From Paraescarpia echinospica (lineage: Eukaryota > Annelida > Polychaeta > Sabellida > Siboglinidae), in contig CM034533.1 in assembly GCA_020002185.1 (NCBI GenBank), forward strand, positions 38,834,396 to 38,898,395: a stretch of 64,000 bases of DNA, in the 5' to 3' direction. Made by a program: the position numbers and the translations under genes. Under the pieces are notes generated by a model that had not been told where the DNA came from, ran no database searches, and saw only the letters and a program-made list of their open reading frames with translations. Position 1 is the stretch's first letter; each line of letters opens with the position of its first letter. Below, piece by piece: positions 62 through 16,240 of the stretch.

Positions 62-143
62 TAGATTCGTTGTATGTGAGATGCCACCTAACGGTGATTA
101 CAGAGATCCTATAATATAACCGGGGTAAAACCACTGCATAATC

Positions 144-225
144 GTTGGCGACGGTATAGCTCTCTTAGGAGAGCGTTCGCCTAGGGATCGAAAGATTCCG
201 GGTTTGAACCCTAGTCGCAACTTTT
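144..225 (+). other. tRNA-like sequence, second copy (AGG loop)
   Basis: This shares about 40 bases with the element at position 1. It has a D-arm hairpin (GCTCTC/GAGAGC), the CTAGGGA loop with AGG at the anticodon position, a T-arm-like GGGTTTGAACCC (200-211), and TTTT at 222-225. The ends can pair (144-152 with 214-221) with one bulged G, but the spacer between acceptor and D arm is too long for a standard tRNA. I call it tRNA-like, not a functional tRNA. Confidence 0.35.
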
Positions 226-257
226 GTAGTTCCTCTATCTAGCGGTGGTGGTGATAG

Positions 258-265
258 TATATAAG
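258..265 (+). promoter_or_regulatory. TATA box of the NADAR gene
   Basis: TATATAAG lies 39 bases before the ATG at 297, so transcription would start only about 10 bases upstream of the start codon. The context TATAAGTGG resembles the TATA motifs before PolB and in the tandem array near 16.3 kb. Confidence 0.45.
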
Positions 266-296
266 TGGTGGCGGTAGCGGGTTATCGGTAGTCGGT

Positions 297-752: not shown

Positions 753-776
753 AAAGTATTCGTTCAGTCGTCGAAA

Positions 777-1436
777 ATGAGCGGACAATCGTTGAAGCAT
801 CCTTTTACATGTATAGTAGCCGGTCCTACGGGGTGCGGTAAGACGACAATCGTCGAGCGCCTGATACGGTACGTCACTATGATCGATCTGCCGCCGGAGA
901 AAATCCTGTGGTGCTACGGACAGTGGCAGAGCGGCTACGCGTCTATGTCTTCGAAAATAGAGTTCGTAGACGGCCTGCCGGATCCGAAACGTTTAGACGG
1001 TAAAGCGAGAACGCTTCTAGAACTCGACGACCTCATGGAGGAGACCGATAGCCGGGTGACGGTACTATTTACTAAAAAAAGTCATCATTGTAATACGTCG
1101 GTCGTACAACTGCGACAGAACATGTTTCGGAAAGGGACAGAAAACCGTACAATCAGTCTGAACGCCCAACACATAGTGCTATTCAAGAGCCCCCGAGATG
1201 CCGGCCAAGTAGGTCACCTACCGAAACAGATGTACTCGGGAAAGGTCAACTACATGATAGAGGCTTTCAAAGACGCGACGTCGTCGGCGTACGGCTATAT
1301 ATTCGTGGATCTGAAAGAGGAAACGGAAGAGGACATGCGCCTGCGTACGTGCATGTTTCCGGACGATCGTCTTCAGTACGTGTACGTACGGAAGGGTGGT
1401 GGCGGTGGTGGTGGTGGTGGCGTCGGCATGCTATAA
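777..1436 (+). CDS. Polinton DNA-packaging ATPase (FtsK/HerA, A32-like)
   Basis: A 219-residue P-loop ATPase expected to pump the element's DNA into capsids. Walker A GPTGCGKT is at residues 16-23 and a Walker B-like LLELDDLMEE near residue 80. The segment from SHHCNTSVVQLRQNMF through ISLNAQHIVLFKSPRD is the conserved core of Maverick/Polinton packaging ATPases. The protein ends in an unusual run of nine glycines encoded by GGT/GGC repeats, which may be slippage-prone. The reading frame is intact. It is followed by two small genes and the integrase, a usual Polinton neighbourhood. Confidence 0.9.
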   Translation: MSGQSLKHPFTCIVAGPTGCGKTTIVERLIRYVTMIDLPPEKILWCYGQWQSGYASMSSKIEFVDGLPDPKRLDGKARTLLELDDLMEETDSRVTVLFTKKSHHCNTSVVQLRQNMFRKGTENRTISLNAQHIVLFKSPRDAGQVGHLPKQMYSGKVNYMIEAFKDATSSAYGYIFVDLKEETEEDMRLRTCMFPDDRLQYVYVRKGGGGGGGGGVGML

Positions 1437-1474
1437 GAAGAGAGGGACGTCGGGGCGTACGTTTATTAGTCGCT

Positions 1475-1876
1475 ATGACGGGGCGAGCGGTGGTAGCGAA
1501 GCAACGACCGAAGGTGGCGGCACCGACGAACCAAGTCAAGAGACACATTTTCGCCCTGCAGCTGTTGGAGAGGCATAGGCGAAACATCGATCTGGGAAAA
1601 GCCGTGATCGGCCACGCGTACACCGGTCTCATTTGTAGTATGTGCGATTGCGCGTACAACATTCTGAAAGGGAACGTGAAGTTGTCGCCGAAGCAGAAAC
1701 GCGTGTTGTCGAAATACCGGAATCACCTGCGTAAACTCGCCGACAAACACGTTGCGCTTAAAAAGAAGCGTGCCATCTTGCAAAAGTTTGCGGGTGGTTT
1801 TCTGTCGGCCCTGCTAGCTCCGTTACCGAGGACCGTTCTCCTGCCGCTGCTCAGACAGGTGATCGGCAGCGGGTGA
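1475..1876 (+). CDS. Conserved small basic Polinton protein
   Basis: A 133-residue basic protein read from ATG 1475. The frame stays open back to 1349 but overlaps the ATPase, so 1475 is the more likely start. A central segment resembling CDCAYNILKGNVKLSPKQK (about residues 55-73), a lysine-rich helix and a hydrophobic C-terminal segment (FAGGFLSALLAPL) match a short protein often found between ATPase and capsid genes in animal Polintons. The function is not known to me; the hydrophobic end suggests membrane or capsid association (inference). Three bases separate it from the next gene. Confidence 0.6.
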   Translation: MTGRAVVAKQRPKVAAPTNQVKRHIFALQLLERHRRNIDLGKAVIGHAYTGLICSMCDCAYNILKGNVKLSPKQKRVLSKYRNHLRKLADKHVALKKKRAILQKFAGGFLSALLAPLPRTVLLPLLRQVIGSG

Positions 1877-1879
1877 TCG

Positions 1880-2641
1880 ATGCAGTACGCGAAGAAGATG
1901 GCGTTGGTCGATCCGCGATTGGTGGAAAGCCTCCTGCCACGTGTCGATCAGTCGTCGAGCACGCCCCGATCACGTGTGCTGAGTAGCCTGGACAGCGACA
2001 TGAAGGACATTCTAGAACGTTCGGATTTATCCGAACGGGAAAAGGTAGCGTCGTACAATCAACTGCTGAGTCGGTACAACACGATAGAGGCGGCTCGTGC
2101 GGCGCAACCGGTACGCGTGTCGGTGGTCAACAGCAGCGGCGAGACGCCTGCGGTGGGGGTGGCGGCGGCGACGGTGGCGCCACCATCGTCGGAACTCGTA
2201 GAGCGCGAAATCATAGCCAGTATGCCGAAAACGCTGAAAGGGAAGACGGGACTGCTTATCGAAAAAATGAAAGCCGATCCGTTGTGTCGATGGAACGAGC
2301 GCGGCGAATTCGTGTACGACGGTAAAACGATCGCTGGGAGTAACATGGTCGATCTAGTGAACGATCTCATGCGAACGAGATCGAAGACGTCGGCGCCCGT
2401 AGGATGGCGAGAGTTCGGGTTGCGTATGAAGGATATGAATATCCCTATGGAATTCGTGGGTAACCCGCGCTATCGGTCGTACATGGAGCGACGACAGAAG
2501 CGCCTACTAGAAGAGGCGTCGATGACGCCGACGACGACTAGTTCATCAGCGACGCCGGAGTGGAGACGTCGGATGCGACGCGAGACTAAACGCAGACAAC
2601 GATCCCCTTCGTTGGACGTCGCGGCGTGGGAGACGTTGTGA
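1880..2641 (+). CDS. Conserved Polinton protein of unknown function
   Basis: A 253-residue protein. The opening MQYAKKMALVDPRLVESL, the helical segment around residues 35-70, and a C-terminal part with WNERGEFVYDGKTIAGSNMVDLV (about 137-159) resemble a protein conserved in animal Polintons. An alanine/valine/proline-rich linker (about 85-105) joins the two halves, and the tail is very basic (RRMRRETKRRQR). No enzymatic motif is visible. Its TGA stop overlaps the next ATG (TGATG), suggesting tight coupling with the small membrane protein. Confidence 0.65.
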   Translation: MQYAKKMALVDPRLVESLLPRVDQSSSTPRSRVLSSLDSDMKDILERSDLSEREKVASYNQLLSRYNTIEAARAAQPVRVSVVNSSGETPAVGVAAATVAPPSSELVEREIIASMPKTLKGKTGLLIEKMKADPLCRWNERGEFVYDGKTIAGSNMVDLVNDLMRTRSKTSAPVGWREFGLRMKDMNIPMEFVGNPRYRSYMERRQKRLLEEASMTPTTTSSSATPEWRRRMRRETKRRQRSPSLDVAAWETL

Positions 2642-2727
2642 TGCCGTCACGACGCACGATAACGGTCATCGGCTTCACCATCGCTCTTATCGTTCTCTAT
2701 ACGTGTATAATAATCATCGTACATTGA
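2641..2727 (+). CDS. 28-residue single-pass membrane protein
   Basis: ATG 2641 overlaps the previous stop codon (TGATG). The frame encodes a short basic N terminus (MPSRR) and then an uninterrupted hydrophobic stretch of about 20 residues, typical of a single transmembrane helix. Its position and overlap argue for a real mini-gene. It overlaps the upstream extension of the integrase frame, supporting the later integrase start at 2748. Function unknown. Confidence 0.45.
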   Translation: MPSRRTITVIGFTIALIVLYTCIIIIVH

Positions 2728-2747
2728 TCATCATCGTCGTCGTCGCG

Positions 2748-3893
2748 ATGGTGTCCGGGTGGAGTCGTCGTCGACGTCGGTCAAAACGAAAGCCTCGACA
2801 GCAACGAAACGACGACGAATACCTGAATAGCATCTACTTCGATCCGAAACGGGTAGGAAGTTACGGAGGCGTCGACGCGTTGCACCGGGCGTCGAAGATC
2901 CGACGTCCGGCCGTCGAGAGGTGGCTAGCGTCGCAGGACGCCTATACCCTACACAAACCGGTTAAACGACATTTCAATCGACGTCGCGTCATCGTGGGCG
3001 GTCGAATCCAGCAGTGGCAAGCCGATCTGGTCGACTTGACTACACTGAAAACGCACAACGACGGTATAACATACCTATTGACGGTGATCGATGTGTTTTC
3101 GAAGTGGGCGTGGTGCGATCCGTTGAAGAGTAAGTCCGGCCCGTCGCTCGTCGCGGCCTTCGAGCGCCTGCTAAGCGATGACGACGACGACGAGACGCCG
3201 AACTCGCTGCAGACCGATAAGGGGAGCGAGTTTTTGAACCGGCCCCTGCAAACGTTCCTAACGAGTCGCGGCGTTCATCATTTCGTGACGCATAACGAGG
3301 AGACTAAAGCGAGCGTCGTGGAACGATTTAATCGGATTTTGAAGACGCGTATGTGGCGCTATTTTACGAAACACGAGACGCTGCGCTACGTAGAGGCGTT
3401 ACCGGATTACGTGCGATCGTACAACAACGCCTACCACCGAAGCATCGGTAGGACGCCGGCGAGTGTCGACGCGACGAATCAGGAGGCCGTATGGCAACGA
3501 CTGTACGGTGGCGACGTCGACTGCGGTCAACGGCGAAAACCGAAACTACGCGAGGGAGATCGCGTACGTATCAGCAAGACGAGGGGTCAATTCAAAAAAG
3601 GATACATGGCTAACTGGAGCGAGGAGCTCTTCACCGTCGTAGAGGTGCACCCGTCCGAACCGCCCGTTTATCGCCTGAAGGACGACGCCGGGGCACCGGT
3701 AGAGGGCGCCTTCTACGAACCGGAACTACAACGCGTAGTCGTTCCGAAGGACAAACTGTATCGCGTGGAGGTGGTTCTACAGCGTCGTCAGCGTCGTCGC
3801 GGCGACGGTGGTTCGGAGGCGCTCGTAAAATGGAGCGGATATCCGGCCTCTTTCAACAGTTGGATCGACGCCGAGTCGCTAGTGGACCTATAA
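2748..3893 (+). CDS. Polinton integrase (rve, DDE) with C-terminal chromodomain
   Basis: A 381-residue retroviral-type integrase that would insert the element's DNA into the host chromosome. Numbered from ATG 2748, the acidic triad is D93 (WQADLVDL), D157 (LQTDKGSEF) and E192 (ASVVERFN), with the usual spacing. An SH3-like region follows (GDRVRISKTRGQFKKGYMANW). The last about 50 residues form a chromodomain (YRVEVVLQ ... VKWSGYP ... NSWIDAESLVDL), a reader of modified histones that may bias target choice. An arginine/lysine-rich N terminus could be a nuclear signal. The frame is open from 2703, but the start at 2748 avoids the overlapping mini-gene. No lesions seen. Confidence 0.92.
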   Translation: MVSGWSRRRRRSKRKPRQQRNDDEYLNSIYFDPKRVGSYGGVDALHRASKIRRPAVERWLASQDAYTLHKPVKRHFNRRRVIVGGRIQQWQADLVDLTTLKTHNDGITYLLTVIDVFSKWAWCDPLKSKSGPSLVAAFERLLSDDDDDETPNSLQTDKGSEFLNRPLQTFLTSRGVHHFVTHNEETKASVVERFNRILKTRMWRYFTKHETLRYVEALPDYVRSYNNAYHRSIGRTPASVDATNQEAVWQRLYGGDVDCGQRRKPKLREGDRVRISKTRGQFKKGYMANWSEELFTVVEVHPSEPPVYRLKDDAGAPVEGAFYEPELQRVVVPKDKLYRVEVVLQRRQRRRGDGGSEALVKWSGYPASFNSWIDAESLVDL

Positions 3894-3896
3894 AAA
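3889..3896 (+). promoter_or_regulatory. TATA-like box after integrase
   Basis: CTATAAAA overlaps the integrase stop codon, and a second TATAAA lies at 4008-4013, about 40 bases before ATG 4051. Either could start the transcript for the downstream membrane and capsid genes. The roughly 155-base stretch 3894-4050 otherwise shows no convincing gene. Confidence 0.4.
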
Positions 3897-4050
3897 GACT
3901 ACTACTAGTGAGGGGCGGCGACGATCAGAATGAATCGTTGGATGCGCCACACGGGGTGCTGGCGTCTGCACGAGGCTGGAATATGCAACGGATCTTCGTT
4001 CTTACCGTATAAAGGTCCCTGCTGTATTGACAGAGCGCATTGGCGCGACG

Positions 4051-4416
4051 ATGAGCGACGACGACGAAACTACCTCGAGTGGCGATCGTCGATCGAACGC
4101 CGGCGCCGAGCACGCGGACTCCGTCGACGAGCACGCGGACTCTATCGACGCTACCACCACAACCACCGCCGAACCAGTTCCATGGCGAATATGCGGCAAC
4201 GAATGCCCTAAGGCCGAAATCGTATTCCTCTGTCAGGTCGTCGTCCTGTACTTCGTCATCGCCGTTAGTATATTCAATCTGACGAAAGGTCAAGGTGACT
4301 CCAACCTGTGGACGGCGCTGTTGAGCAGCTGTCTCGGTTACCTGCTCCCGAGTCCGTCTATGAGTGTAGGTGGCGGCGAACGTCGACGTCAACAACACGA
4401 TGGCGGTCTCGTCTGA
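4051..4416 (+). CDS. Conserved Polinton two-helix membrane protein
   Basis: A 121-residue protein. An acidic, low-complexity N terminus (residues 1-45, Asp/Thr-rich with a repeated EHADS) precedes a conserved block: VPWRICGNECPKAEIVF leading into a first hydrophobic helix (about FLCQVVVLYFVIAVSIF), then SNLWTALLSSCLGYLLPSP as a second hydrophobic segment. This arrangement is common in Polintons directly upstream of the penton gene. ATG 4051 is chosen because the conserved protein begins with acidic residues and a TATA box lies about 40 bases before. It overlaps the penton start by 17 bases. Confidence 0.65.
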   Translation: MSDDDETTSSGDRRSNAGAEHADSVDEHADSIDATTTTTAEPVPWRICGNECPKAEIVFLCQVVVLYFVIAVSIFNLTKGQGDSNLWTALLSSCLGYLLPSPSMSVGGGERRRQQHDGGLV

Positions 4417-5260
4417 CTTTTACCTGACGCTACCGAGCAACGCGTCTATGAAGCGTCACCCCGAAAATACGTTGACGCACTACGTCACGACGTTGCCGCG
4501 ACGTTTCGACCTATCGGGGGAGTGGGATTGCGGAGCGGTGTCGGTACAGTATCCGCACACGTGGTACAACGTGAGAAAGAAGGACGCCTACTTCTACCTG
4601 ACTTGCGCGACTGGTGATCCGGGTATTTACACGCAGGTAGACGAATACGGCACGACCATCCTGATATATCGTCAGACCACGATTCCTCACGGTTTCTACA
4701 ACAACGTTTATACGTTGTTGAACAGGATCAACGAGGCGCTAGATAAATTGTGCACCAATAAGGTCAAGGTCATGCTAGAATACTGCGCCGTCTCTAACCG
4801 ATTTACGCTACGTATGTCGCCGGGTGTCGAATTTATCATACCTCATACGAGCCGTCTGAAGGACGTGCAAGGTTTCCATAGCAACACGGTCCTGAGTAAC
4901 GTCATGTATGGCCCCGAGTCGGCGGTCGTCATCGACAACATGCCCGTCGCGCACACGTACGACTACGAAGGTCACGATACGGCGGGCATCGAGAGCCTGT
5001 ACGTGTACACGGATCTCGTGGAACCGCGCGTCGTCGGTGACGTGTACGCGCCACTCCTTCGAAACATCGCCGTCCGCGGTGAGAACGGTGACATTACTTC
5101 GGAAACGTTCGACCGCGTCCAATACGTGAAGCTGCTGCGGAATCAATTCGATACGGTCGAACTCGATATAAGAGACGATCACGGCCAACCGATAGCATTC
5201 GAGCAGGGAAAGGTGGTGACGACGCTTCACTTCAGACGCTGTAAATCGAAATTGTTTTAA
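4400..5260 (+). CDS. Penton / minor capsid protein
   Basis: A 286-residue protein from ATG 4400, intact. The opening DFYLTLPSNASMKRHPENT, the segment LPRRFDLSGEWDCGAVSVQY followed by PHTWYN, and the late LFVELDIRDDHG-like and VVTTLHFRR segments are typical of the Polinton minor capsid protein, a single-jelly-roll penton equivalent at capsid vertices. The frame extends to a GTG at 4370, but ATG 4400 fits the family N terminus. It overlaps the preceding membrane gene and ends one base before the next ATG. Confidence 0.85.
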   Translation: MAVSSDFYLTLPSNASMKRHPENTLTHYVTTLPRRFDLSGEWDCGAVSVQYPHTWYNVRKKDAYFYLTCATGDPGIYTQVDEYGTTILIYRQTTIPHGFYNNVYTLLNRINEALDKLCTNKVKVMLEYCAVSNRFTLRMSPGVEFIIPHTSRLKDVQGFHSNTVLSNVMYGPESAVVIDNMPVAHTYDYEGHDTAGIESLYVYTDLVEPRVVGDVYAPLLRNIAVRGENGDITSETFDRVQYVKLLRNQFDTVELDIRDDHGQPIAFEQGKVVTTLHFRRCKSKLF

Positions 5261-5261
5261 C

Positions 5262-5717
5262 ATGCCGCCGTCGAAGAACCCGTACGTGGATTACTACGTT
5301 CGTCAGGTCGGCGGTCAGCTGCCGGTCTTCGTCGGTGCTCGGGGGCAACGAGGTCACGGTCTGGGCAATCTCTTCGGGAGGCTGTTTCGAAGCGCCATGC
5401 CGCTTATCAAGAGAGGCGCGTTGGCGTTGGGAAAACGTGCGCTCAATATCGGCATGCACGTGGCGCGCGACGTCGTCGCCGGCGGCAATCTGAAACAGTC
5501 GATAAAACGACGCGCGAAGGAGGCCGGTTCCGTTCTTCTCGACGGCCTATTGAATTCGCAGGCACCGCCGAAGAAGAAGAGGAAGAAAAAAACGCAGCAG
5601 CAGCAGCGCCGCCCCCGCGGCGGCGGCGTCGGCATAAAGAGACCGCGCCTAGCGGCGACGGCCGTCAGTAGGCGGAAGAGACGGCGTCGAACGGATCACG
5701 ACATATTCGACGAGTAA
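5262..5717 (+). CDS. Basic core / pVI-pX-like capsid protein
   Basis: A 151-residue, very basic protein between penton and major capsid. The N-terminal third carries a glycine-rich GLGNLFGRLFRSAMPLIKRG amphipathic segment (about residues 33-52), like membrane-active or core proteins of adenovirus and adintovirus (pVI/pX). The C-terminal third has nuclear-signal-like clusters (PPKKKRKKK, RRKRRRR), a glutamine run and the terminal motif DHDIFDE. The likely role is DNA condensation and/or membrane penetration in the particle; the family assignment rests on position and composition. It is a plausible substrate of the downstream protease. Confidence 0.65.
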   Translation: MPPSKNPYVDYYVRQVGGQLPVFVGARGQRGHGLGNLFGRLFRSAMPLIKRGALALGKRALNIGMHVARDVVAGGNLKQSIKRRAKEAGSVLLDGLLNSQAPPKKKRKKKTQQQQRRPRGGGVGIKRPRLAATAVSRRKRRRRTDHDIFDE

Positions 5718-5719
5718 CG

Positions 5720-7024
5720 ATGGCGTTCGTGAACGGCGTAACATGCGAGGGCGTGAAGGCCGAACTGGAGCTGTTCAGAGGGCCGGTGACGCAGACGAGC
5801 GTCGAGAGTAGTCAGTGGACCGTCTACCAGCCGCTGACGAATCTCGACGCCGGCGGTCCTATCGAGTTCCTCATCCCGGGTTCGGGCGAGAAGTTCACGG
5901 ACCTGGCACGCCTTCAAGTGTACGTGCGCTTCAAAGTGGTTCAGGGGGAAGGTACCGATCTGGCGGCCGCTGCCAACGTGGCGCCGGTCAATAATTTCCT
6001 GCATTCGATGTTCAGTCAAATCGACGTGTCGCTGGACAACACTCTCGTGACGCCGTCGACCAATACGTACGCGTACCGGGCCTACCTCGAGACGCTGCTG
6101 AGTTACGGTAGCGACGCGAAACGGTCGCATCTCACGGGTTCGTTGTGGTACAAAGACAGCGCCGGACGGACGGACACGCTCGGGAACAACAACGTCGGGT
6201 TCGAGGCACGGCGCGCAATGACGGCCGATAGCAACGAGGTGGAGATGATGGGGCGCGTGCACGTCGACTCGTTTATGCTAAACAGACACATACCGAACGG
6301 CGTCGACACGAAAGTACGCATGGTGCGCTCGAATGACACCTTCGCGCTCATGGGCGGCCAAGCCGTACCGGGGTGGCGCGTCGTGCTGCAAGCGATTCGA
6401 CTGCACGTGCGAAAAGTGAAGTTGAACCCGGACGTCTAGATGGGACATATCAAAGCGTGGACGTTGGGAACGGCTAAGTTTCCGATGCGCCGCATCGACT
6501 GCAAAACGTTCTCGATATCGGCGGGTACGCTATCGCACACGCAGGAGAACTTGTACATGGGTTCGATTCCGAAACGCATCTTCCTGATGATGATCGATAA
6601 CGTCGCCTACAACGGAGACTACACTAGAAATCCGTTCGACGCGCGTCACAACGACATATACTTCCTAACGCTCATCGTCGACGAACGTCATGTGCCGAGC
6701 ATGCCGCTGCAGCCGGACTTCCCGCACAACCGGTACGTGCGGAGCTACATGAATCTCTTCGAGGCCAGCGGAAAGGCGTACGAGGACGAGGGGAACGACG
6801 TATCGCGCACGGACTTCGGCGCCGGCTACACCATCTTCGGTTTCGACCTGACCCCCGACTGTTGCGACTGGGACCATTTCAACGTCGTGCGTCAGGGGAC
6901 CGTGGGCGCCGAAATGCACTGCGGGACGCCGCTACCGCTTCCGGTGAACGTCGTCGTGTACGCGGAATTCGAGACAGTGATGGAGATCGACAGGAACCGG
7001 AACGTCGTGTACGACTGGAAGTAA
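5720..7024 (+). pseudogene. Major capsid protein (double jelly roll), broken by an in-frame TAG
   Basis: The two halves read in the same frame: 5720-6439 (239 residues) and 6440-7024 (194 residues), separated only by a TAG codon at 6437-6439. Together they match the F54H12.2-type Polinton major capsid protein, the hexon equivalent. Signatures are an N-terminal LNxx/YQPLTNLDAGGPIEFLIPGSG region, FLHSMFSQIDVSLDNTLV, and in the second half GSIPKRIFLMMIDN, LPLQPDF-like, and YTIFGFDLTPD. The stop falls between the two jelly-roll regions, right after the conserved RKVKLNPDV. An ATG directly follows the TAG, but the second half alone cannot build a capsomer. It may be a dead gene, a readthrough site, or a sequence error; other lesions nearby favour decay. 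Confidence 0.85.
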
Positions 7025-7026
7025 CT

Positions 7027-7471
7027 ATGGATACGTTTCAACTGATGCGTCGTCTGGAACACGATACGTACGCTAAACGTATCGTCGTCGGCGTCGTGCC
7101 TAAAGACGCGCTACTTACCGTCACCACCACCGTTTACCCGACGGCCTTCGTGTGCAACACCGACGACGGCGGCGAGCCGGGACAGCACTGGGTGGCCGTC
7201 TACGTGGACGCCGACCGGCGAGGCGAGTACTTCGATTCGTACGGTCTGCCGCCGCTGCACGCCGACTTCCACGCGTTCCTGCACCGCAACTGCGGCAACT
7301 CGTGGACGTACAACGACAAGCGGCTGCAGAGCTAACGTGTGCGGACAATATTGCGTCGCCTACCTTCTCCTCCGATGTCGCGGTATGCCGTTGACGACGT
7401 TCCAGAGCCTACTCGGCACCGATCGGGTGACCAATGACTGTCTCGTATTCGATTTGTTAAAACCGCATTAA
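7027..7471 (+). pseudogene. Adenain-like capsid maturation protease, frameshifted
   Basis: This is the cysteine protease that matures capsid proteins in Polintons and adenoviruses. From ATG 7027 the frame carries the catalytic His54 (GQHWVAVYV) and Asp70 (YFDSYG), then stops at TAA 7333-7335. The region with the catalytic cysteine (NVCGQYC, about 7334-7354) and the rest of the protein to TAA 7469-7471 are in another frame. The break therefore separates His/Asp from Cys. Size and order (H-D-C) fit the family. It starts two bases after the capsid stop. Confidence 0.85.
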
Positions 7472-7501
7472 TTTCGCTTTTACTTGTATAGTAGTAGTAG
7501 A

Positions 7502-7544
7502 AATAAAAAACAAACGATGATGTACACAATTGTTGTTGTTTATT
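7502..7544. terminator. Convergent poly(A) signals between protease and PolB
   Basis: A plus-strand AATAAA at 7502-7507 follows the protease. A minus-strand AATAAA (TTTATT at 7539-7544) lies just past the PolB stop at 7653. The two transcription units converge here with signals about 35 bases apart. A CATA tetranucleotide run (about 7557-7586) follows. Confidence 0.6.
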
Positions 7545-7652
7545 ATTACCCTACCTACATACATTCATACATACATACATACATACAGAAACTACCCCTA
7601 TGGGGGTGGTGGGGTATTCCTTAGGTTAGACGAGTTAGACGAGTTATTCGAG

Positions 7653-10600
7653 TTAGACGAGTATCGGTGCCGTGGTGACGCCGTCGCCGAGCACGCGGCG
7701 TTTAGCGTAGAAGTAGTTCAACGCCGCGCGCTCTTGAACGTACGTCAACACGGACGAGTCTTTCACCTGGAAACCACGGTTCCAGCCGACGCCGTTGCGA
7801 CGGTCGTGCAGTACGGCGAGGAAGGTGTGCTCGTCGATGTCGTTCTGACGCTTGCTCAGTCCCTTCGTGCTGTACTTCGGACCGTTGTCGCCGCCGAAGC
7901 AGTAGTAGGTCTTGCTGCACAGCGCCACGATTCCGTCGCCGCGCCACTCTTCTTTGAAGAGACCCGGCGTTCGACGATCGAACAGACGTCGGCGCGCGGA
8001 GCAGTCCTCCGGCGTCCACGCTAGTCCGGCGACGCGCCGTCGTACGTAATCATCCACGTGCGCGTCGCAGCATTCGGCCGGAAACCAGAGCGATCGATTC
8101 CGGAAGTAGTGTTCGCGATGTTCTTCCGGTACGAGCGCGTCGACGTCACGTCCGGCGAGGGCGATGTACGCCGAGTCCGTGTCCATAGCGCAGTACTGGT
8201 AGAGCGACGACGTCGAGTTGCCGGAAGCGACGTTTGTTGACGAGCATCGAAGCGCCGATCGGCGTGGCGTACTTGATTCCCGGTGCCGATCGACATGCGT
8301 AATCTTTTTCCCGTAGGAACTGTTGCCGAGAAGTTTAATGGTATCGGCGATGATCGATTTGTCGGGATCGATATCGCCCTCGCGTCGCGCCGTCGAGACC
8401 GTGTCGCCGAAGCGGCGAAAGCACGCGATCGGCGCGTACTCGATGACCTGGTAGACGCGCTCGACGACGAGACCGTGCGCCAGATACCAGCGTAGGAGGG
8501 GCGTCGCGAGCTCGATCTCGGCGCCGAAGTAGCTACCGACGGGCGTCCGTTGAGGACGGGTGAGGAGATCGTGCGACTCGGCGTAGTCGCGCATGAACGG
8601 GCTGAGATCGTCGCGCGCGATATCGACGTTCTTGAAAACGGGCTGCATTTCGGCGAACTTGTCGCGCAGCGCTTCCGGCACGGCGATATCGCACTGCACG
8701 AGGCCGAACAGAGAGCCGTCGCGCACCGTCTCCAGTATCGTCGAGCGCGTAATGGGCGTGAGTGGTTGTCATCGTGACGCGTCGGGTGGCGTCGGCGCCG
8801 CAGGCGGTCGCACGGCGTCCCACTGGCACTCCCACATTTCGACGACGTCGTCGACGAAACGACGCAGGTAGGTGGTCACGGGGATCGTCGCGGCGTACAA
8901 CGTCGTCATCGGTTGACCGTTGACGGCGTTCGTCGTCACGTGCGCCTGGCACGTCGGGCAGCCGTGAAAATAGCAGCCGTGAAATTGATATGCCGTTCGC
9001 GTGGCGGCGCACCAGCCGTCGACTCGGTGCTTTCCGATGCGCTTCTCGCGTTCGTTCAACTGGTGACGTATACGCGCGCCGGTTTGCGCCTCCACCCACG
9101 TCAAACACTCCACGGCCATACGACCGTAGCGGTGCACGCGTTCCGCTCGAAAGGCGTTCTCCGCTCGCCGGCGCGTGTACCAGCCCGTCGGCATCTCCTG
9201 CATTATCGCCCATAGATAGAGGCCGTTTGCGTCGAAGCCGACTATCGAACGACACGGCGCGTCGCCGCCTCGAATCGCCGTCACGTCAGCCTCGTGATGG
9301 CGCGCGAAGATGATCGACGGGCCGCCGACGATCTGCGACTGCAGCAGACGGTGCAGATCTTTGTTCGGCTCGTTGAAAAGCGAGAAATGGATCGACGTCG
9401 GCAGGTCGTTGAACAGATACAACAACGTCAACCTCGGTACGCTGATGGCGTCCTTGAACATGTCGATACGTCGGCGCCGATAGAAGGCGAACTGGCGATC
9501 GACGGCCTCGAGAAACACATGTAATTGTTCTGACGTTTAATGGTAAACACCGACGACGTGTGCGACGCGTCGCCGGTTATGACCAGGGGGGTCAAGTACT
9601 TCTTGACGACATTGAGATCGTACTTACCCGAATTGAATCCCAGTACGGGCATTTGACGAAGGTGCGTCCACAGGCGGTCGGCGAGAGTGGCGTACGGTGA
9701 CGCGTTGTCGTCGTCGTCGTTGCTACGTCGCCGCCAGTCGGCGTCGAGCGCGTCGAGCGCCTCGAAGGTCGCGTCCAAGCGGGGTCGTAGAATCGCGCAC
9801 GCCGCCGCGCTCACCGCTTCCAGGTCGTCGATGAGGCGACGCGCGAGTTCCGTCGAATCGCCGGTCGTGACGTAACATCGCGCCGCTTCGTGACCGGGCA
9901 CGTTCGACGCGACGCTCACGCTGAGCAGTTCGTGTCGCGCGATCCACCGGCATTTGTCGGTATCCGTCGGCAGATCGTTATCGGCGAAATAACATTCAAA
10001 ATCGAACGTCGCGCGGTACGGGTAGTAGCGCAGGTCGTCGTCGCCGACGTCGATGCCTTCGTCGTCGAGCCGCTCGAATACGGACGGCGACGGTCGGTAG
10101 ATACCGCCGGGGAACACGTGACGAACGCCACCTTCGCACGTCGTAAATCGCGCTCACACCCCCAGAGGGAGTTGCCACATTTTCCGCACTTGTACGTTTT
10201 CGTGTACGCGCGCGGGTCGCTTATGTACGAGAAGTGCGACTCGTACAGGTTGACGTTCAGGGTCGTGGGGTGCGCTTCGCGCGACCGACGGACTAGTTAG
10301 GTGACGTCATTCGTCAGTCGATAGACGATGACGTTGATATCGAAAACCGTCTCCACGCGATCCAGTTCGTTCAGGCGCACACCGTTCGAGGCCGACGTGC
10401 GCGCGGCGCGACAATACTGCGCGTGCAGTCGTTTAGCGACTTTCGTTAAACGGTTCGAATCGATGTGGCGGCTACTTTCGCCTCGTCGGTGACCTTGTAG
10501 GTGGAGGCCGATGCATCGGAAGAGGCATAGATGGTCGTCGTAACACGTACCTCGATGATCTTTCGTGAACGACACGATGGCCCTGTTGAGGCGCACGTAG

Positions 10601-11320
10601 GCGGGAAGCGCTACGCCAACGCACCCGATAGGATGGGCGATGATGGCGTTCACGAAGTAGGTGGCGTTCGTTACGAGCTCGACGATCCACCCCGAGTCGG
10701 GACGCTGCGCGATGGCATACTGCAGTACGTCGGTCGTGCACACGGCGTCGAGGAATCGTTCGAACGAACGGCTATCGGTAACTAGGGCGAGTGTTTCGAG
10801 GAGGCGACCGCAACAGTTACAGGAAGAATGAAAATATCGGTACCGACCCGACACCTTGTGGCTTAATACGAAACCGTACCTTACGTTAATTTTAAACGCA
10901 TTCTTTTGTTCGCGAAACATTTCCCTCAGACGCGGTTCGAGCACCCGCGTACTCGTACAGGCGGTCATGCGATAGTTGTAACGCGACTGCACGGCACCGC
11001 GCGCTACCGACGTCTCTATGCTACGCCGGTGCTCGTCCACGACACGCTGTAGATCGTCGGGTGACGGCGCCCTAGCGGCTGCCGCTACCTCCACCGATGG
11101 TTCATTACTACTACTACCAGGAGGTGGCGACGTCTGACGGCCACACCGCAGCTTCAGGTGTTGTAGCATAGCGCGGCGCATAGTGAACGTCGCGCCACAT
11201 TTTGGACACTCTCGACGTTTTACGCATAGCGCGTCGTTGCCACATCTTTTCGAACTCTTCGCGTGTCGTTCGAACGTCGATTGTTTCGCGAAAAAGCCCC
11301 TGCATTTCGGACATTGTCAT
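7653..11320 (-). pseudogene. Protein-primed family B DNA polymerase (Polinton PolB), decayed
   Basis: Reading from 11320 leftwards, the gene begins with two C2H2-type zinc fingers (CPKC ... ERHAK, and CPKCGATF ... HLKLRC), then the Polinton N-terminal region (AHPIGCVGVALPAYVRLNRA, CLFRCIGLH) to a stop at 10297. A zinc ribbon (YKCGKCGNSLWGCERDL, about 10140-10220) and the exonuclease part follow (FDFEC and GFNSGKYDLN, 9510-10117). Next comes 8769-9518 with polymerase motif A (GFDANGLYLWAIMQEMPTG), then 7653-8768 with motif B (KLLGNSSYGK), motif C (MDTDSAY) and the C terminus. Lesions: a frame change right after the first ATG, frame changes near 10300-10135 and 9515, an in-frame TGA at 8769-8771, and a frame-shifted, shortened stretch near 8200-8300. 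The gene would have copied the linear element genome from a terminal protein; it cannot be functional as read. Confidence 0.88.
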
Positions 11321-11376
11321 CTAGTAGGTGATGGTGGTGGCATTCTCTAATGTGCTGATATTTTTTCGAGCACCAC

Positions 11377-11384
11377 TATTTATA
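11377..11384 (-). promoter_or_regulatory. TATA box upstream of PolB
   Basis: Read on the minus strand this is TATAAATA followed by GTGGTG, 57 bases before the ATG at 11320. It shares the TATAA(R)T(R)GTGG look of the box before the NADAR gene. Confidence 0.45.
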
Positions 11385-11460
11385 ACAGTGGTGGCTGTGG
11401 TGGTGGTGGTGGTGGTAAGTACACCCTAGCGGGAGGAATGTGGTTTTAGGTAATGCGGGT

Positions 11461-11686
11461 AACTCGGAACGATAGTGGAAGGAATGTTTTTTGCGGTAAC
11501 GAGTGATGGTGGTTGCGAACTAGCGGTAATTTTTATAACTAACTCGGAATGTTTTAGGTAACCCTAGCGGTGGGGAACTCGAAACGATAGTGGAAGGAAT
11601 GTGTTTGCGGTAACGAGTGATGGTTGCGAACTAGCGGTAATTTGTATAACTAACTCGGAATGTTTTAGCTAACCCTAGCGGTGACT
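11461..11686 (+). repeat. Two-copy tandem repeat (about 115 bp) beside the PolB promoter
   Basis: Copies at 11461-11575 and 11576-11686 share AACTCGRAACGATAGTGG, GCGGTAACGAGTGATGG and CTAACTCGGAATGTTTTAG at about 90% identity. The motif CTAGCGGTGG also occurs before the NADAR gene (near 239), so the non-coding parts of the element share sequence. No gene is seen in 11385-11838. Possible regulatory or replication repeats. Confidence 0.65.
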
Positions 11687-11838
11687 TGTTTTGGGTAATG
11701 TAACTCGGATACGGAAAGTACATTTTCAACGTTTTATTCAGTAGCTTACAACATTCAAACACAGCGTTGAAGCCTTTGTTTCAATAGCAAGCAAATATTA
11801 GCAAAACAAGCAGTGTTCTTTATTCTATTGTTCATTCT

Positions 11839-12516
11839 TCATTCCAGTCCGCTCCGGCGCTGCACGTACGTGTGCACGGCCGACTCCAGCTGCACACGGT
11901 TCATGTAATCGCGCCAGTTCGTTCCTAACAACCAGTCCGACACAAACTGCATCAAATACAACTCTCCCGCACGACCCGTTTGCGGCTGCTGACCACCGGA
12001 AGTTGACACCGTAGTTTCGTGTAGAATTTGCACGAGTCGCGTGAAACAGGGGATAAGCGACCGACGCACGAACGTTTCCATGACGCTGTTGAAATATCGC
12101 GTTACGATACAGCCCGTGCTGTCAAAACGCTGCATGTATATACGGTTTGGCCGTCCCGCACGATAGCCGGGCATGTGTACATATGGACAGCCTTCATTCG
12201 GCTCGCATACCCCGCAATGATCCCGCGCCCGCTCCAGAATCATTTCACCGAGGGTCTCGGCGACGAGGTCCATTGCGAGCCGTTCATAACGGCAGACCAA
12301 CTGGGCCCTGCTCGGCACGACGATTTGACGTTGGCACGCCACCTCCTCCGATAGGCTCCAGCACGGAGCGCACGTCGGTCCCATCGTCCCCAGCGGCGTG
12401 TACACGCTTTCGTTATACGTCAGTGGAGGAGGACGCATTCGGCTCACATCCGATCCACCCAGCGCCTCCTCGATGATCGCGTCCAATACGTGGGCGTCAC
12501 GCACTCCGCTTCCACC
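11839..12516 (-). CDS. Unknown protein (accessory block frame D)
   Basis: An open frame of 225 codons from just after a splice-acceptor-like GCTGTAG at 12517-12523. The first in-frame ATG is at 12438, giving 199 residues. I do not recognise it. Visible are a cysteine cluster (TCAPCWSLSEEVACQ; HCGVCEPNEGCPYVHMPGY, about 90-115 residues in) that could bind zinc, and helical segments towards the end. A minus-strand AATAAA (11819-11824) lies 15 bases after the stop. Codon use is GC-rich like the rest of the block. It may be the last frame of a spliced or polycistronic transcript starting upstream of the RPA-like gene. Confidence 0.5.
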   Translation of the reverse strand, partial: GGSGVRDAHVLDAIIEEALGGSDVSRMRPPPLTYNESVYTPLGTMGPTCAPCWSLSEEVACQRQIVVPSRAQLVCRYERLAMDLVAETLGEMILERARDHCGVCEPNEGCPYVHMPGYRAGRPNRIYMQRFDSTGCIVTRYFNSVMETFVRRSLIPCFTRLVQILHETTVSTSGGQQPQTGRAGELYLMQFVSDWLLGTNWRDYMNRVQLESAVHTYVQRRSGLE

Positions 12517-12534
12517 CTACAGCACAAAGCAGTT

Positions 12535-12615
12535 CTACTCTTTACGAATCACCGTCAGCAACGCGTGTAGGAAGTCGCACATACACTCACGCCTGGTGTG
12601 TTGCATCAGCGCCTC
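12535..12615 (-). CDS. Short reading frame C (26 codons) after an acceptor-like site
   Basis: Open in the frame set by the preceding TTTGTAG (from 12616), ending in TAG at 12535-12537. It has an ATG at its fourth codon. Taken with its neighbours it behaves either as a small exon or as one of a series of tiny cistrons. The sequence is helix-like (DFLHALLTVIRKE); no family is recognised. A 21-base gap separates it from frame D. Confidence 0.35.
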   Translation of the reverse strand, partial: EALMQHTRRECMCDFLHALLTVIRKE

Positions 12616-12638
12616 CTACAAACACATTATTATTATGA

Positions 12639-12791
12639 TTAGTCCGCCTCCTTCTTGACCTGTTCCTCCCTCTTTATCGACCCCGCCACTTTGCATTCCA
12701 ACAACGTTCTTACGAACGCGGTAACCTCGTCGTACTGAGCACGGATCCTTTCGTTGTTTGCCAGCATACCTTGCAGTACGCGGCGCACTTC
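12639..12791 (-). CDS. Short reading frame B (50 codons)
   Basis: Open in the frame set by GCTGTAG (from 12792) and ending in TAA at 12639-12641. The charged, helical composition (NNERIRAQYDEVTAFVRTLL, ending in Lys/Glu-rich residues) suggests a coiled coil. The first ATG is at codon 9. The TAA is embedded in ACTAATC, which resembles a branch point for the next acceptor 26 bases on. It also contains donor-like GTAAGA (phase 0) and CAG/GTCAAG sites, so normal introns cannot be excluded. Confidence 0.4.
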   Translation of the reverse strand, partial: EVRRVLQGMLANNERIRAQYDEVTAFVRTLLECKVAGSIKREEQVKKEAD

Positions 12792-12817
12792 CTACAGCAT
12801 ATAAGCACAACTGTTAG

Positions 12818-12985
12818 TTACGGAATAGAAAATAAGTTCGCTTCGTAAGCTAGCCAAAACGCCTTTATATGATTTTCGGCCTTCTCTACTACTTGTCGCC
12901 AGGCCTCCTCAGTTAGGTCACGTCCACGCCACCGTATCATTCGTTGTTGCGCATTCGTATGCGTCAACAAATCTTCTTCTTCTTC
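12818..12985 (-). CDS. Short reading frame A (55 codons)
   Basis: Open in the frame set by TTTGTAG (from 12986), beginning with four glutamates, which continues the acidic five-aspartate end of the RPA-like protein. It then has an amphipathic helix-like stretch (LTEEAWRQVVEKAENHIKAF) and ends in TAA within the perfect branch-point motif TAACTAAC. The first ATG is at codon 16. The continuity of the acidic run across the gap suggests the two pieces belong to one protein (inference). Confidence 0.4.
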   Translation of the reverse strand, partial: EEEEDLLTHTNAQQRMIRWRGRDLTEEAWRQVVEKAENHIKAFWLAYEANLFSIP

Positions 12986-13004
12986 CTACAAACAACACAA
13001 CACA

Positions 13005-13760
13005 TTAGTCGTCATCGTCGTCGAATCTCTTCAGTGTTCGCACGGTATACGAGGGCTCCCCGTTCCAAGTCGTCTTACGCACACTGATCTCCACTTTCGT
13101 GCCGGTTAACTCAAGCACAGTATCGCGGAGTTCCTCCTCGCTCAACTCCACCAAGTAATCGGCCGTGTACTCGACGAGATTAGACATTTGGCTATGAAAT
13201 AAAGTAAGCCAAAGCACGTCTTCCTCCTCCTCGCCGTCCTTCACCATCACACGCAACGCGAAGAAATATTTCGGAACCAACACTCCACCGTGCGTTCGGC
13301 ATATCAGTTCCCCGCCTTTGCTTTTCTGCAATTTTCGGCGACAACGGGAACATCCCAAATAGGCGCCAACCTCTTTGTACGACACAGCGTCGATCATAAC
13401 GGGCAACGGAAGTTTATACACACCGTTGGCAGCACACTTCAGGTGCCTCAGACTCACCAATGTGGCGCGCGTCGACGCCGACGATTCGCATTCGCGCTCG
13501 AGTGAGGCGCTCCGCGTCAGGGGTGGGTGTCCCTCAGCCGTCTCGACGGTGCCCAAGGACGCCTCTTCGGCGCTTCGCTTTCGCCCGACAGTAGCAGTCA
13601 ACGGTGGCGCAATGAGCACCACGGGCCGCTTAACAGGTGTCGCTCCCGTTGACAGCGCTGCTACCACCGGCGAAGGTTGCTGCTGCTGTTGACCGCTGGC
13701 CGCCTTCAGTGACTGCTTGCGCGGTGCCTTGGTCTTTTTTGGTGGATTCTCATCTGCCAT
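13005..13760 (-). CDS. RPA-like single-stranded-DNA-binding protein (zinc ribbon + OB fold)
   Basis: A 251-residue protein from ATG 13760. The N-terminal 90 residues are low complexity and basic (PPKKTKAPRK; glutamine run; RKRSAEEA). From about residue 118 it resembles the large-subunit RPA C-terminal DNA-binding domain: a zinc ribbon C127-x2-C130 ... C144-x2-H147, then KYFFALRVMVKDG, WLTLFHSQM, a helix YTADYLVELSEEELRD, and a final strand pair (VEISVRKTTW, YTVRTLKRF). Such proteins coat single-stranded DNA during replication. It ends in five aspartates and TAA. An acceptor-like TTGTTTCTACAG with CTAAC upstream (ends 13798) precedes the ATG. It could serve the neighbouring Polinton polymerase or a separate element. 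Confidence 0.65.
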   Translation of the reverse strand: MADENPPKKTKAPRKQSLKAASGQQQQQPSPVVAALSTGATPVKRPVVLIAPPLTATVGRKRSAEEASLGTVETAEGHPPLTRSASLERECESSASTRATLVSLRHLKCAANGVYKLPLPVMIDAVSYKEVGAYLGCSRCRRKLQKSKGGELICRTHGGVLVPKYFFALRVMVKDGEEEEDVLWLTLFHSQMSNLVEYTADYLVELSEEELRDTVLELTGTKVEISVRKTTWNGEPSYTVRTLKRFDDDDD

Positions 13761-13797
13761 GTTTTCGCGGAAGAACGTCTCCTGCTTGCTGCTGCTG

Positions 13798-13863
13798 CTG
13801 TAGAAACAATACACGTTAGAACTCCGGCGACATACAACATAGCATTTTCTCAACCGTTTTATA
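13798..13863 (-). promoter_or_regulatory. Promoter and 5' splice region of the RPA-like gene
   Basis: On the minus strand TATAAAA occurs at 13863-13857. About 22 bases further on, GTATGT (13835-13830) is followed by CTAAC and TTGTTTCTACAG ending at 13798. That would be a possible 38-base intron, but a TATA-directed start near 13833 would fall at the donor, so the intron is uncertain. Confidence 0.4.
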
Positions 13864-13874
13864 CTTTTTAAAAT

Positions 13875-14700
13875 AACGCGCATGCGCACTTAACAGTCTA
13901 CAGTTATCTTACAAATCTCACACATGCGTACTTAACGCAAACGACGTCGATACCGAGGAATTTGTTTTAGGAAAAAAGTTAGTGGTCACGTCAATACATC
14001 CATCGTCAAATGTGCCTTTTACATCAAATTTCTCTAATATTATCACACCACTCGATTCCAGAGACCAAACTCATCGTGTACAACGGTTACTTTCATGCTT
14101 TTAACTGATCGTTTATTGTTTTTGAAATGTCATTGTCTACAACATAACGCGCATGCGCACTTCACACTAATACCGTTATCTTACTCAATTATCAGCATGC
14201 ATACTTCATACATCCCAGGCATTTTGTTTTCGGAAAAAAGTTTCCGGTCACGTCAGTACATTCACCGTTAAATCTCTCTTTACATCGAATTTCTCTAATA
14301 TCACTGCACCTCACGTTTCCTGACCCCACAGCGATCGTATACAACGTTTAATTTCATGCTTTTAACGTTTCGTTTATTGTTTTTAAAAATCCATTGTTCT
14401 CCATTCACATTCCAATCGCGATAAGTGACGCGCAACAGATGTCAAAATTACGCGCATGCGTACTTAACGCAAACGACGCTGCTACCGAGGAATTTGTTTT
14501 AGGAAAAAAGTTAGCGGTCACCTCAGTACATCCATCGTCAAATGTGACTTTTACATCGAATTTCTTTAATATCACTGCACCTCACGTTTCCTGACCCCAC
14601 AGCGATCGTATACAACGTTTAATTTCATGCTTTTAACGTTTCGTTTATTGTTTGTAAAAATCCATTGTTCTCCGTTCACATTCCGATCACGATAAGCCGT
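13875..14700 (+). repeat. Three diverged tandem repeats (about 260-290 bp) with NRF-1-like palindromes
   Basis: Three copies lie between the divergent genes. They share GAATTTGTTTTAGGAAAAAAG, GTCACSTCARTACATYC, CGAATTTCTYTAATAT and TTTCATGCTTTTAAC. The palindrome GCGCATGCGC occurs at 13878-13887 and 14149-14158, with a variant near 14451; it matches the consensus of the animal factor NRF-1. The arrangement suggests a bidirectional promoter/enhancer for the flanking transcription units. Confidence 0.65.
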
Positions 14701-14808
14701 AGTGTCATGCGCCACCGCTGTTTGACGGTGCGCACATTACATATTTCATACACACTTCTGAACTCACGCACAATCGACGCTACATTTCTTCGTTCCCTAC
14801 TTTCCACA

Positions 14809-14852
14809 ATGGACACACCAACAACAACGTCGCCCCATAAGTCAACTCAACG
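14809..14852 (+). CDS. Exon 1 of a two-exon 111-residue protein
   Basis: ATG 14809 opens a Thr/Pro/Ser-rich segment of 14 codons plus two bases, ending exactly at a perfect donor CG/GTAAGT (14853). Exon 2 at 15500 completes the split codon (CG+A, Arg) in frame. Phase agreement, a consensus donor and a clean acceptor support a real spliced gene diverging from the RPA-like gene. Confidence 0.6.
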
Positions 14853-15499
14853 GTAAGTCTGCTTTTACGCATACATACATGCATGCATGCATGGTTCTCA
14901 TTTTATTTTACTATTTAAACAGTTGTAAGTACGCATGCATGCATGCATGCATGCATGTGTACGTGCATGCATGGTTCTCATTTTATTTTACCATTTAAAC
15001 AGTTGTAAGTACGCATGCATGCATGCATGCATGGTTCTCATTTTATTTTACCATTTAAACAGTTGTATGTACGCATGCATGAATGCATGCATGGTTCTCT
15101 TTTTATTTTACCATTTAAATAGTTCTAAGTACGCATGCATGCATGGTTCTAATTTTATTTTACCATTTAAACAGTTGTAAGTACGCATGCATGCATGCAT
15201 GCATGCATGGTTCTCATTTTATTTTACCATTTAAACAGTTGTAAGTACGCATCCATGCATGCATGCATGGTTCTCATTTTATTTTACCATTTAAATAGTT
15301 GTAAGTACGCATGCATGCATGCATGCATGGTTCTCATTTTATTTTACCATTTAAACAGTTGTAAGTCTGCTTTTATGCATGCATGCATGGTTCTCATTTT
15401 ATTTTTCCATTTAAACAGTTGTAAGTATGCATGCATGCATGGTTCTCATTTTATTTTACCACCCTTTGTTTAAACATGTATTGTGGTTTTATTTCATAG
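14853..15499 (+). repeat. Intron made of about ten tandem intron-like repeats
   Basis: Units start at 14853, 14925, 15005, 15065, 15125, 15177, 15241, 15301, 15361 and 15421, mostly 60 bases apart. Eight begin with GTAAGT, one with GTATGT, one with CTAAGT. Each continues with ATGCATGC repeats, GGTTCTCATTTTATTTTACC and ATTTAAACAG, an acceptor-like end, then TT and the next GTAAGT. The last unit runs into TTTTATTTCATAG at 15499. ATG-initiated frames through this array are artefacts of the repeat. Confidence 0.8.
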
Positions 15500-15791
15500 A
15501 CCGATCCAACTGCCTACAACCACCAAATCACCTAAACCAACATGCACGGTTGCGCCTACAATTCACCCAATCACGCCTACGATTCACCCAATCACGCCGA
15601 CACCTAGCAGCCACGACTCGGATGATGACGGCACCCCCGACCTCGCGAGAGTGTTCCTCATAAAAGGTGCCGATGGGCTGTGGCGAACAGCCATTCCAGC
15701 CACCGAACTTTATCAACGTCGTGGGTTTAACTCCCCCGATATGAGGAGACCCGTTGGTCGCGCGCGGCTGCTACAATACAATACACAATAA
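15500..15791 (+). CDS. Exon 2 of the two-exon protein (unknown function)
   Basis: The exon follows acceptor TTTCATAG and reads on from exon 1 to TAA 15789-15791, which overlaps an AATAAA signal (15787-15792). The protein has a Thr/Pro-rich N-terminal half with a repeated TIHPITP motif (a nine-residue duplication), an acidic SHDSDDDGTPD stretch, and a compact C terminus (ARVFLIKGADGLWRTAIPATELYQRRG ... MRRPVGRARLL). I do not recognise it; size and charge suggest a small nuclear or virion-associated protein (inference). Confidence 0.6.
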
Positions 15792-16240
15792 ATATTCCAG
15801 TCATCTCTACTACTCACGTTTTCACGCGTCTGTATCCAGTGCATAAACACCCTACGAACAGTATCACCAACTGAACGTTAGTGTATTTATGCATTTGGTT
15901 TCGTTGTAATCCCACGACTAGATGTATTTATTTATTTAAACGCATTGGTTTCGTTTGAATCAGAGCACTAGAACGCACAGCCTTAGCCAGCTATGCTGTC
16001 ATGCAGGGGTCATAGTCCACTCCAGCAGCCGCAGCGCTTATCGCTGCTGTCAACATAGTGTACAGTGGGGCACCCACATAGGGCTGACGGGGAGAATCTG
16101 CACACAGTGGTTTTATCATGGTTATATATTCGCGCGATAAACGTATTATTGCTTACGTCAGCACGCGCTAAGTACGGCGTTGATCGCTAGGGGATGAATT
16201 AAAAGGGTCTCTCCGCTCACCGATAGGTGGCACCTCGGGG
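15792..16240. other. Gene-free stretch right of the accessory block
   Basis: No convincing gene. It contains two similar TTTAT-GCATTGGTTTCGTT segments (about 15885-15910 and 15930-15955), possible remnants of a repeat. Confidence 0.5.

Follow-up and report, generated by a model that had tools for sequence, protein, structure and literature searches.

Four of the five reading frames of a gene in the annelid Paraescarpia echinospica begin without a start codon, immediately behind an AG that resembles the end of an intron, and the question raised by this locus is how such frames could be expressed. The gene lies on the minus strand, at 13760-11839, of the 64,000-nt stretch of DNA that was analysed (the window, to which all positions refer). 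Its frames, ORF1 to ORF5, are separated by four gaps of 22, 29, 26, and 21 nt, stop codon included, and ORF2 to ORF5 each open in phase 0 at the base right after the AG of TGTAG (Table 1). When re-read, the coordinates proved to be exactly those given in an initial annotation of this DNA, which had also estimated the frames at about 610 residues together (the sum is 607) and had placed three of the stops in branch-point-like motifs. The latter were found to be CTAAT, TAACTAAC, and CTAATC; the fourth stop stands in TAGAAC.

Table 1. Positions of the frames, gaps, and candidate signals of the five-frame gene in the window
Feature	Position	Strand	Description
TATA box TATAAAA	13857..13863	minus	inside conserved block ~13888-13798
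3' splice-site-like motif TCTAAC...TTTCTACAG	13798..13820	minus	ACAGC end in 77/96 rows
ORF1	13760-13005	minus	251 aa, stop TAA
Proposed shared 5' coding exon	13458..13760	minus	ORF1 codons 1-101, basic tail
Proposed shared 5' splice site TTG/GTGAGT	13452..13457	minus	phase 0; GTRAGT in 89/97 rows
Rest of ORF1, doubling as intron in the proposal	13005..13457	minus	RPA-like OB domain (proposed) and own stop
Gap 1	12986..13007	minus	22 nt: stop TAA, (TGTGT)n, TTTGTAG acceptor
ORF2, proposed alternative terminal exon 1	12818..12985	minus	55 aa, TAA, phase 0, start without ATG
Gap 2	12792..12820	minus	29 nt: stop TAA within TAACTAAC, ...CTGTAG acceptor
ORF3, proposed alternative terminal exon 2	12639..12791	minus	50 aa, TAA, phase 0
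Gap 3	12616..12641	minus	26 nt: stop TAA within CTAATC, (ATA)n, TTTGTAG acceptor
ORF4, proposed alternative terminal exon 3	12535..12615	minus	26 aa, TAG, phase 0
Gap 4	12517..12537	minus	21 nt: stop TAG, ...GTGCTGTAG acceptor
ORF5, proposed alternative terminal exon 4	11839..12516	minus	225 aa, TGA
AATAAA, likely common polyadenylation signal	11819..11824	minus	

That all these frames should be open in the phase set by the AG had been judged unlikely to arise by chance. We defined the pattern as at least 25 open codons, a stop codon whose first base stands 15-32 nt ahead of the last base of TGTAG, and at least 25 open codons in phase 0. It occurs 4 times on this strand of 11839-13760, while 2000 dinucleotide shuffles gave a mean of 0.12 and a maximum of 2 (one or more in 228/2000, two or more in 21/2000), so that chance is excluded. 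The other strand or the rest of the 64-kb window holds 4 further occurrences, which are scattered.

The TATA box lies in a block, ~13888-13798, in which conservation across 95 copies and the window reaches 90% or more at nearly every column. Transcription is expected to start ~30 nt downstream of a TATA box, and the acceptor-like motif at 13798 lies ~35 nt past this expected start. Upstream of the TATA box, at 13876-13888 (minus), there is a palindromic TGCGCATGCGCGT, resembling an NRF-1 site, and a similar sequence is present in the 14.0-14.7 kb repeat units.

Conservation of frames, gaps, and acceptors among genomic copies

Further copies were sought in the genome (1.08 Gb, 3111 contigs). 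A DNA search gave 40 places with 89-100% identity (the best 40 of 815 candidates), and a protein search with ORF5 gave at least 151 matches (the best 150 of 2035 candidates), with ORF5 free of stops in most of the matches listed. The window and 99 fetched copies were aligned to give 100 rows, and a tree was built from 94 of them; six rows were left out because over 10% of the gene is lacking in each. Some copies of the gene stand only 3-17 kb apart (C2:30758400-30770346, C3:17386358-17391498, C1:65280680-65284558, and C311:44301-61817), which suggests tandem or partial elements.

The initial annotation had proposed a search for the same gap pattern elsewhere, and the pattern recurs: stops, acceptors, and open phase-0 frames are present in most of the 99 copies and in a divergent locus, L108, described below. 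An open frame with its final stop in frame was found for ORF2 in 71/98 rows, for ORF3 in 82/99, for ORF4 in 97/100, and for ORF5 in 68/97; ORF1 is open in 56/96 rows and not open in 40/96. In the rows for ORF2 to ORF4 the identity of the stop codon switches in single copies. The gaps end in pyrimidine-AG in 94/98 (gap 1), 96/99 (gap 2), 97/100 (gap 3), and 98/100 rows (gap 4), and in sequence these ends look like 3' splice sites.

Net length changes were measured against the window in 93 copies. Within the frames, they are mostly multiples of three (ORF1, 54/81; ORF2, 81/92; ORF3, 61/68; ORF4, 5/7; ORF5, 58/65), and within the gaps 4/68 are so in gap 1, 3/13 in gap 2, and 0/63 in gap 4. The 55/62 multiples of three in gap 3 are uninformative, since the repeat in this gap is itself a triplet. 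Judged from this comparison, the frames are translated and the gaps are not.

The same appears to hold for the stretches that precede the first methionine codons. Ahead of the first ATG of ORF2 the lengths stay in step in 98/98 rows and the frame is open in 95/98, while ORF5 is open ahead of its conserved ATG (codon 45) in 96/100. The first ATG of ORF5 in the window, codon 27, is an ATG in 13/100 rows only. Codons 1-20 of ORF5 are constrained and recognisable even in P0002, a related protein that lacks the inner methionine. On the evidence of the alignment, ORF2 to ORF5 are coding from the AG onward, where no start codon stands, so they would need a 5' exon spliced on in phase 0.

The ratio of replacement to silent changes on internal branches is 0.27 for ORF5, 0.52 for ORF1, 0.62 for ORF2, 0.68 for ORF4, and 0.85 for ORF3; ORF5 is thus under the strongest purifying selection of the five, and selection on ORF3 and ORF4 is weakly supported. 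On terminal branches the ratios (ORF1, 0.81; ORF2, 0.65; ORF3, 0.61; ORF4, 0.97; ORF5, 0.64) are mostly closer to one, as expected of inserted copies.

Proteins encoded by the frames

ORF1 matches the Pfam family Rep_fac-A_C (E = 9e-7) and, from residue 132, Replication factor A protein 1 in the PDB (6i52_C, E = 0.0032), and we propose from these matches that its C-terminal part is an RPA-like OB domain that would bind single-stranded DNA. No homologue of ORF1 was found at E of 0.1 or below among 5.8 billion proteins. The protein search with ORF5 gave two relatives, P0001 and P0002, and ORF5 has no Pfam, PHROG, or PDB match. ORF2 and ORF3 have no Pfam match, and their PHROG matches are weak (E = 0.097 and 0.3). 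Structure models of ORF5 and ORF1 (mean pLDDT of 53.7 and 40.6, respectively) were too poor for fold searches. No spliced product was among the results of the protein searches with ORF1 and ORF5, the viral contigs searched yielded no relative, and neither the phage records searched nor an Rfam search of the window gave a match.

A candidate 5' splice site within ORF1

Donor sites were scored with textbook frequencies, taking the GTs of 13825-12538 that scored above zero in the window. The best mean score, 4.64 bits, belongs to TTG/GTGAGT at 13457, which exceeds 2 bits in 97% of at most 94 rows. This site is in phase 0, the phase of all four acceptors, and follows codon 101 of ORF1, ~30 residues ahead of the OB match; it is identical in L108. 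The second-best donor, at 13423, has a mean of 2.72 bits and exceeds 2 bits in 90% of rows, but it is in phase 1 and absent from L108.

The surroundings of the 13457 donor are identical at 31/33 nt between the window and L108 and form one of the two best-conserved stretches of ORF1. The other, near 13100, contains a competing donor, a phase-1 GTAAGA at 13078 that is also present in L108, and L108 has a further competitor, GAG/GTGCGT (4.12 bits), at the start of its ORF3. The ACG/GTGATT of ORF4 is another candidate that competes with 13457. Among the copies, silent conservation at 13457 is unexceptional: the 12-nt window there ranks 52/741 within ORF1, and 42% of the third sites of valine codons vary as little as that of the donor.

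A GTATGT at 13835 was considered as the donor of a leader exon and rejected. It coincides with the expected transcription start, and of 16 rows one (L063) lacks it and three (L057, L089, and L102) carry a changed form.

A proposed single tail with four alternative ends

The reading that we favour, and hold to be somewhat better than an even bet on the strength of the conserved sites, is that one donor and a set of alternative 3' splice sites give the 101-residue tail of ORF1 four alternative ends. The comparison of copies shows conservation of the frames with their stops, of the acceptors and their phase, and of the donor; splicing at these sites, a TATA-driven start, and the functions named here are inferred. 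Transcription would be driven by the TATA box at 13863, and the transcript would end at the AATAAA at 11824. The unspliced RNA would give a 251-residue protein consisting of the basic tail of 101 residues and the RPA-like OB domain. Alternatively, the spliceosome would join the 5' splice site at 13457 to one of the 3' splice sites whose last bases are 12986, 12792, 12616, and 12517, with removal of introns of 472, 666, 842, and 941 nt, and the tail would be continued in frame by ORF2, ORF3, ORF4, or ORF5 to give proteins of ~156, 151, 127, and 326 residues, respectively.

The stop that closes each module would fall within, or close to, the probable branch point of the acceptor that follows. 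Such a placement would make the modules self-terminating and the array compact, with four acceptors competing under a single promoter, donor, and 3' end. Of the explanations offered by the initial annotation, this is closest to the second, in which one leader is joined to different acceptors and the branch point also provides the stop. That explanation fits best; the leader itself, however, would be coding rather than untranslated, the proposed first exon being ORF1 codons 1-101 with the donor at 13457. If splicing takes place as proposed, the array would be a clean natural example of stop codons overlapping branch points.

A wider reading, offered tentatively and with the odds somewhat against it, is that an animal Polinton carries a cassette system, with one basic tail serving a series of interchangeable terminal modules. 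Each cassette would consist of an acceptor, a phase-0 frame, and a stop embedded in the branch point of the next acceptor. Were this true, the duplication or loss of one cassette could leave the others unharmed. In isolation, each of the four frames would pass for a short, meaningless ORF that lacks a start codon; the comparison of copies reveals conserved coding modules.

The same plan in a divergent locus

One divergent locus, L108, was read. It shares 82% identity with P0002 in ORF5 and 64% (151/236) with the window in ORF1. The plan is that of the window, with the same stop positions, acceptors, and phases. ORF1 ends in TAA, followed by a 28-nt gap up to TTTTTGTAG; ORF2 has 44 aa and ends in TGA, and the next gap is just 18 nt long and lacks TAACTAAC; ORF3 (55 aa, TAA) and ORF4 (23 aa, TAG) follow, and ORF5 comes last, behind GTGCTGTAG. 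The 135 nt that separate ORF3 from ORF4 (L108:1074-1208) contain two TTTGTAG motifs, against one in the window, and this stretch holds the additional acceptor-like TAATAATGTGTGTTTGTAG and TCTAATTATAATGTGTGTTTGTAG as well as short exon-like stretches. In sequence, it looks like a duplicated acceptor cassette.

Other ways of expressing the frames

The acceptor-like motif at 13798 is not accounted for by the one-donor model and would suit either an exon far upstream or trans-splicing of a spliced leader (SL). In the former case, a shared 5' exon with its own ATG, under a promoter beyond the 14-15.5 kb repeats, would be spliced to five acceptors, that at 13798 and the other four. We regard this as unlikely, as the conserved TATA box directly precedes the 13798 acceptor, conservation among the copies is lower upstream of ~13900, and no candidate exon was identified up to 13960.

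In the latter case, a polycistronic RNA would receive an SL at every acceptor, including that at 13798, which is placed like the end of an outron. This variant of the second explanation has in its favour that all four downstream exons open in phase 0 without an ATG. A leader ending in AUG would start ORF2 to ORF5 in phase 0 at the AG. Flatworm SLs end in ATG according to the available text of PMC12582326, which cites Cheng et al. 2006, and trans-splicing of that kind would also yield ATG-less frames beginning at the AG. If the first AG at 13798 is used, however, the AUG of such a leader would not share the frame of ORF1 in 73/96 rows. Signals for 3' ends between cistrons are absent, no AATAAA being found in the window between 13005 and 12517, and the array gene has a strong, conserved phase-0 donor in cis. 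The host, moreover, is a vestimentiferan annelid, and we know of no SL in annelids. All this makes trans-splicing quite unlikely here.

Very unlikely, in our estimate, is the production of four small proteins from internal ATGs, on spliced or unspliced RNA, with the sequence ahead of each ATG serving as a leader. The inner ATGs are conserved (ORF2, 93/98; ORF3, 96/98; ORF4 codon 12, 96/100; ORF5 codon 45, 97/99), which gives this rival some weight for ORF2 to ORF4. Against it, the stretches ahead of the ATGs are open, length changes there are almost all multiples of three in ORF2 and ORF5 (in ORF3 and ORF4 the length hardly varies), and the conservation of ORF5 codons 1-20 extends to P0002, without the inner methionine. 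It would also leave the splice-site-like ends of the gaps unexplained.

The first and third explanations of the initial annotation, one protein of about 610 residues made through very small introns and ordinary introns with weak upstream donors, both amount to joining the frames into one long protein, and this we consider highly unlikely. The frames do add up in phase 0, and between 95 and 100% of copies retain the phase-0 GTs at 13043, 12713, and 12552. A local phase-0 donor above 2 bits is present in ORF4 in 71/100 rows, mostly as ACG/GTGATT (2.06 bits, 68 occurrences in 100 rows), and in ORF3 in 4/99; the moderate ORF4 donor, which lends the third explanation some support for that frame, is nevertheless absent from L108, where the GTAAGA of ORF3 is also replaced by GTACAA. 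For ORF2 the third explanation is unlikely: in 98 rows its phase-0 GTs never exceed 2 bits, the weak CTG/GTAGAT near its start (0.16 bits, 87 occurrences in 98 rows) is not in the window, and in L108 no phase-0 donor of ORF2 scores above -1. In addition, ORF2 shows the pattern of change of a coding sequence down to its final 20 codons (replacement/silent ratio of 0.33 on internal branches), and the stop stays in frame where the surrounding sequence has changed. Ultrashort introns are not supported either, as the gaps begin with stops and not with GT, the GT that overlaps gap 2 (12821) is in phase 2, the wrong phase, and the in-frame stop is kept despite a change of sequence, from TAA in the window to TGA in L108. 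We also know of no branch point at the first bases of an intron.

That the gaps are mutations of one dead provirus is hardly conceivable: the polymerase gene of the window copy is broken and ORF1 is not open in 40/96 rows, but the same stops and acceptors are carried by most copies and by L108, which refutes decay of one copy as their source.

Comparison with known systems

Small DNA viruses are known to join a single tail to several ends by splicing. In the T-antigen region of polyomaviruses, a single N-terminal exon is likewise expressed in an unspliced form and in alternatively spliced ones, whose C-terminal parts differ and come from overlapping RNA; the array differs in having four acceptors of the same phase, with each module stopping just before the next acceptor, and none of its ORFs that were scanned has a Pfam T-antigen match. 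In HIV-1 and adenovirus, a single donor is combined with several nested 3' acceptors and a common 3' end, yet the downstream ORFs of HIV have start codons of their own, whereas the frames of the array are open from the AG. Papillomaviruses are also compact DNA viruses that make several products by choice of splice sites (see the available text of PMC5335905); the frames of the array, in contrast, start without ATG and would rely on the proposed shared tail.

Polintons/Mavericks and adintoviruses share with the element that holds the array an rve integrase with a chromodomain and a family-B DNA polymerase. No description of one tail spliced to several ends, or of an RPA-like OB gene with an array of alternative exons, was found in the Polinton/adintovirus literature searched, most subscription journals lying outside the search; the available text of PMC11071296 discusses possible penton frameshifting and has the word stem "splic" once. 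If spliced as proposed, Polintons would have compact alternative splicing as in small DNA tumour viruses, which would bear on their claimed kinship with adenoviruses.

The host element

The element in the first 14 kb of the window is, by its gene content, a partly decayed Polinton/adintovirus-like provirus. It encodes an integrase with a C-terminal chromodomain (2526-3890; rve, E = 3.4e-12; Chromo, E = 3.2e-6) and a candidate packaging-type ATPase, whose matches to Adeno_IVa2 and Pox_A32 fall short of the curated cut-off. A family-B DNA polymerase gene on the minus strand (7653-11316) is broken by in-frame stops (10297-10299 and 8769-8771) and frame changes, and a stretch near 9430-9540 is apparently missing. 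Its piece at 7656-8768 has no Pfam match of its own but has 805 relatives at a threshold of E 1e-5; among the 120 listed, P0061 carries PF03175 and P0074 is named DNA-directed DNA polymerase. The frames at 4400-5257, 5720-6436, and 6440-7021 have no Pfam match, and 6440-7021 has no convincing PDB match; by their motifs they may include a double jelly-roll capsid protein and a penton. The candidate capsid gene (5720-7024, plus strand) consists of two ORFs split by a single in-frame TAG (6437-6439) that is directly followed by an ATG, and this TAG reflects either decay of the window copy or a true split.

As for terminal inverted repeats, only short inverted pairs at 14.8-15.4 kb were found in 1-16000, and the left end of the element may lie outside the window. 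Repeats of 60 bp are present at 14.9-15.5 kb. A NADAR-domain gene (297-752, plus strand; Pfam E = 6e-25) lies inside the element. Farther along the window, the region 31479-33999 shows a strong strand bias (GC skew of 0.48) and ORFs matching many unrelated Pfam families, and is probably a minisatellite. One relative of the polymerase, P0066 (67% identity across 61% of the query), was deposited as a protein of a bacterial endosymbiont of the tubeworm Escarpia laminata and probably represents host DNA in a symbiont assembly.
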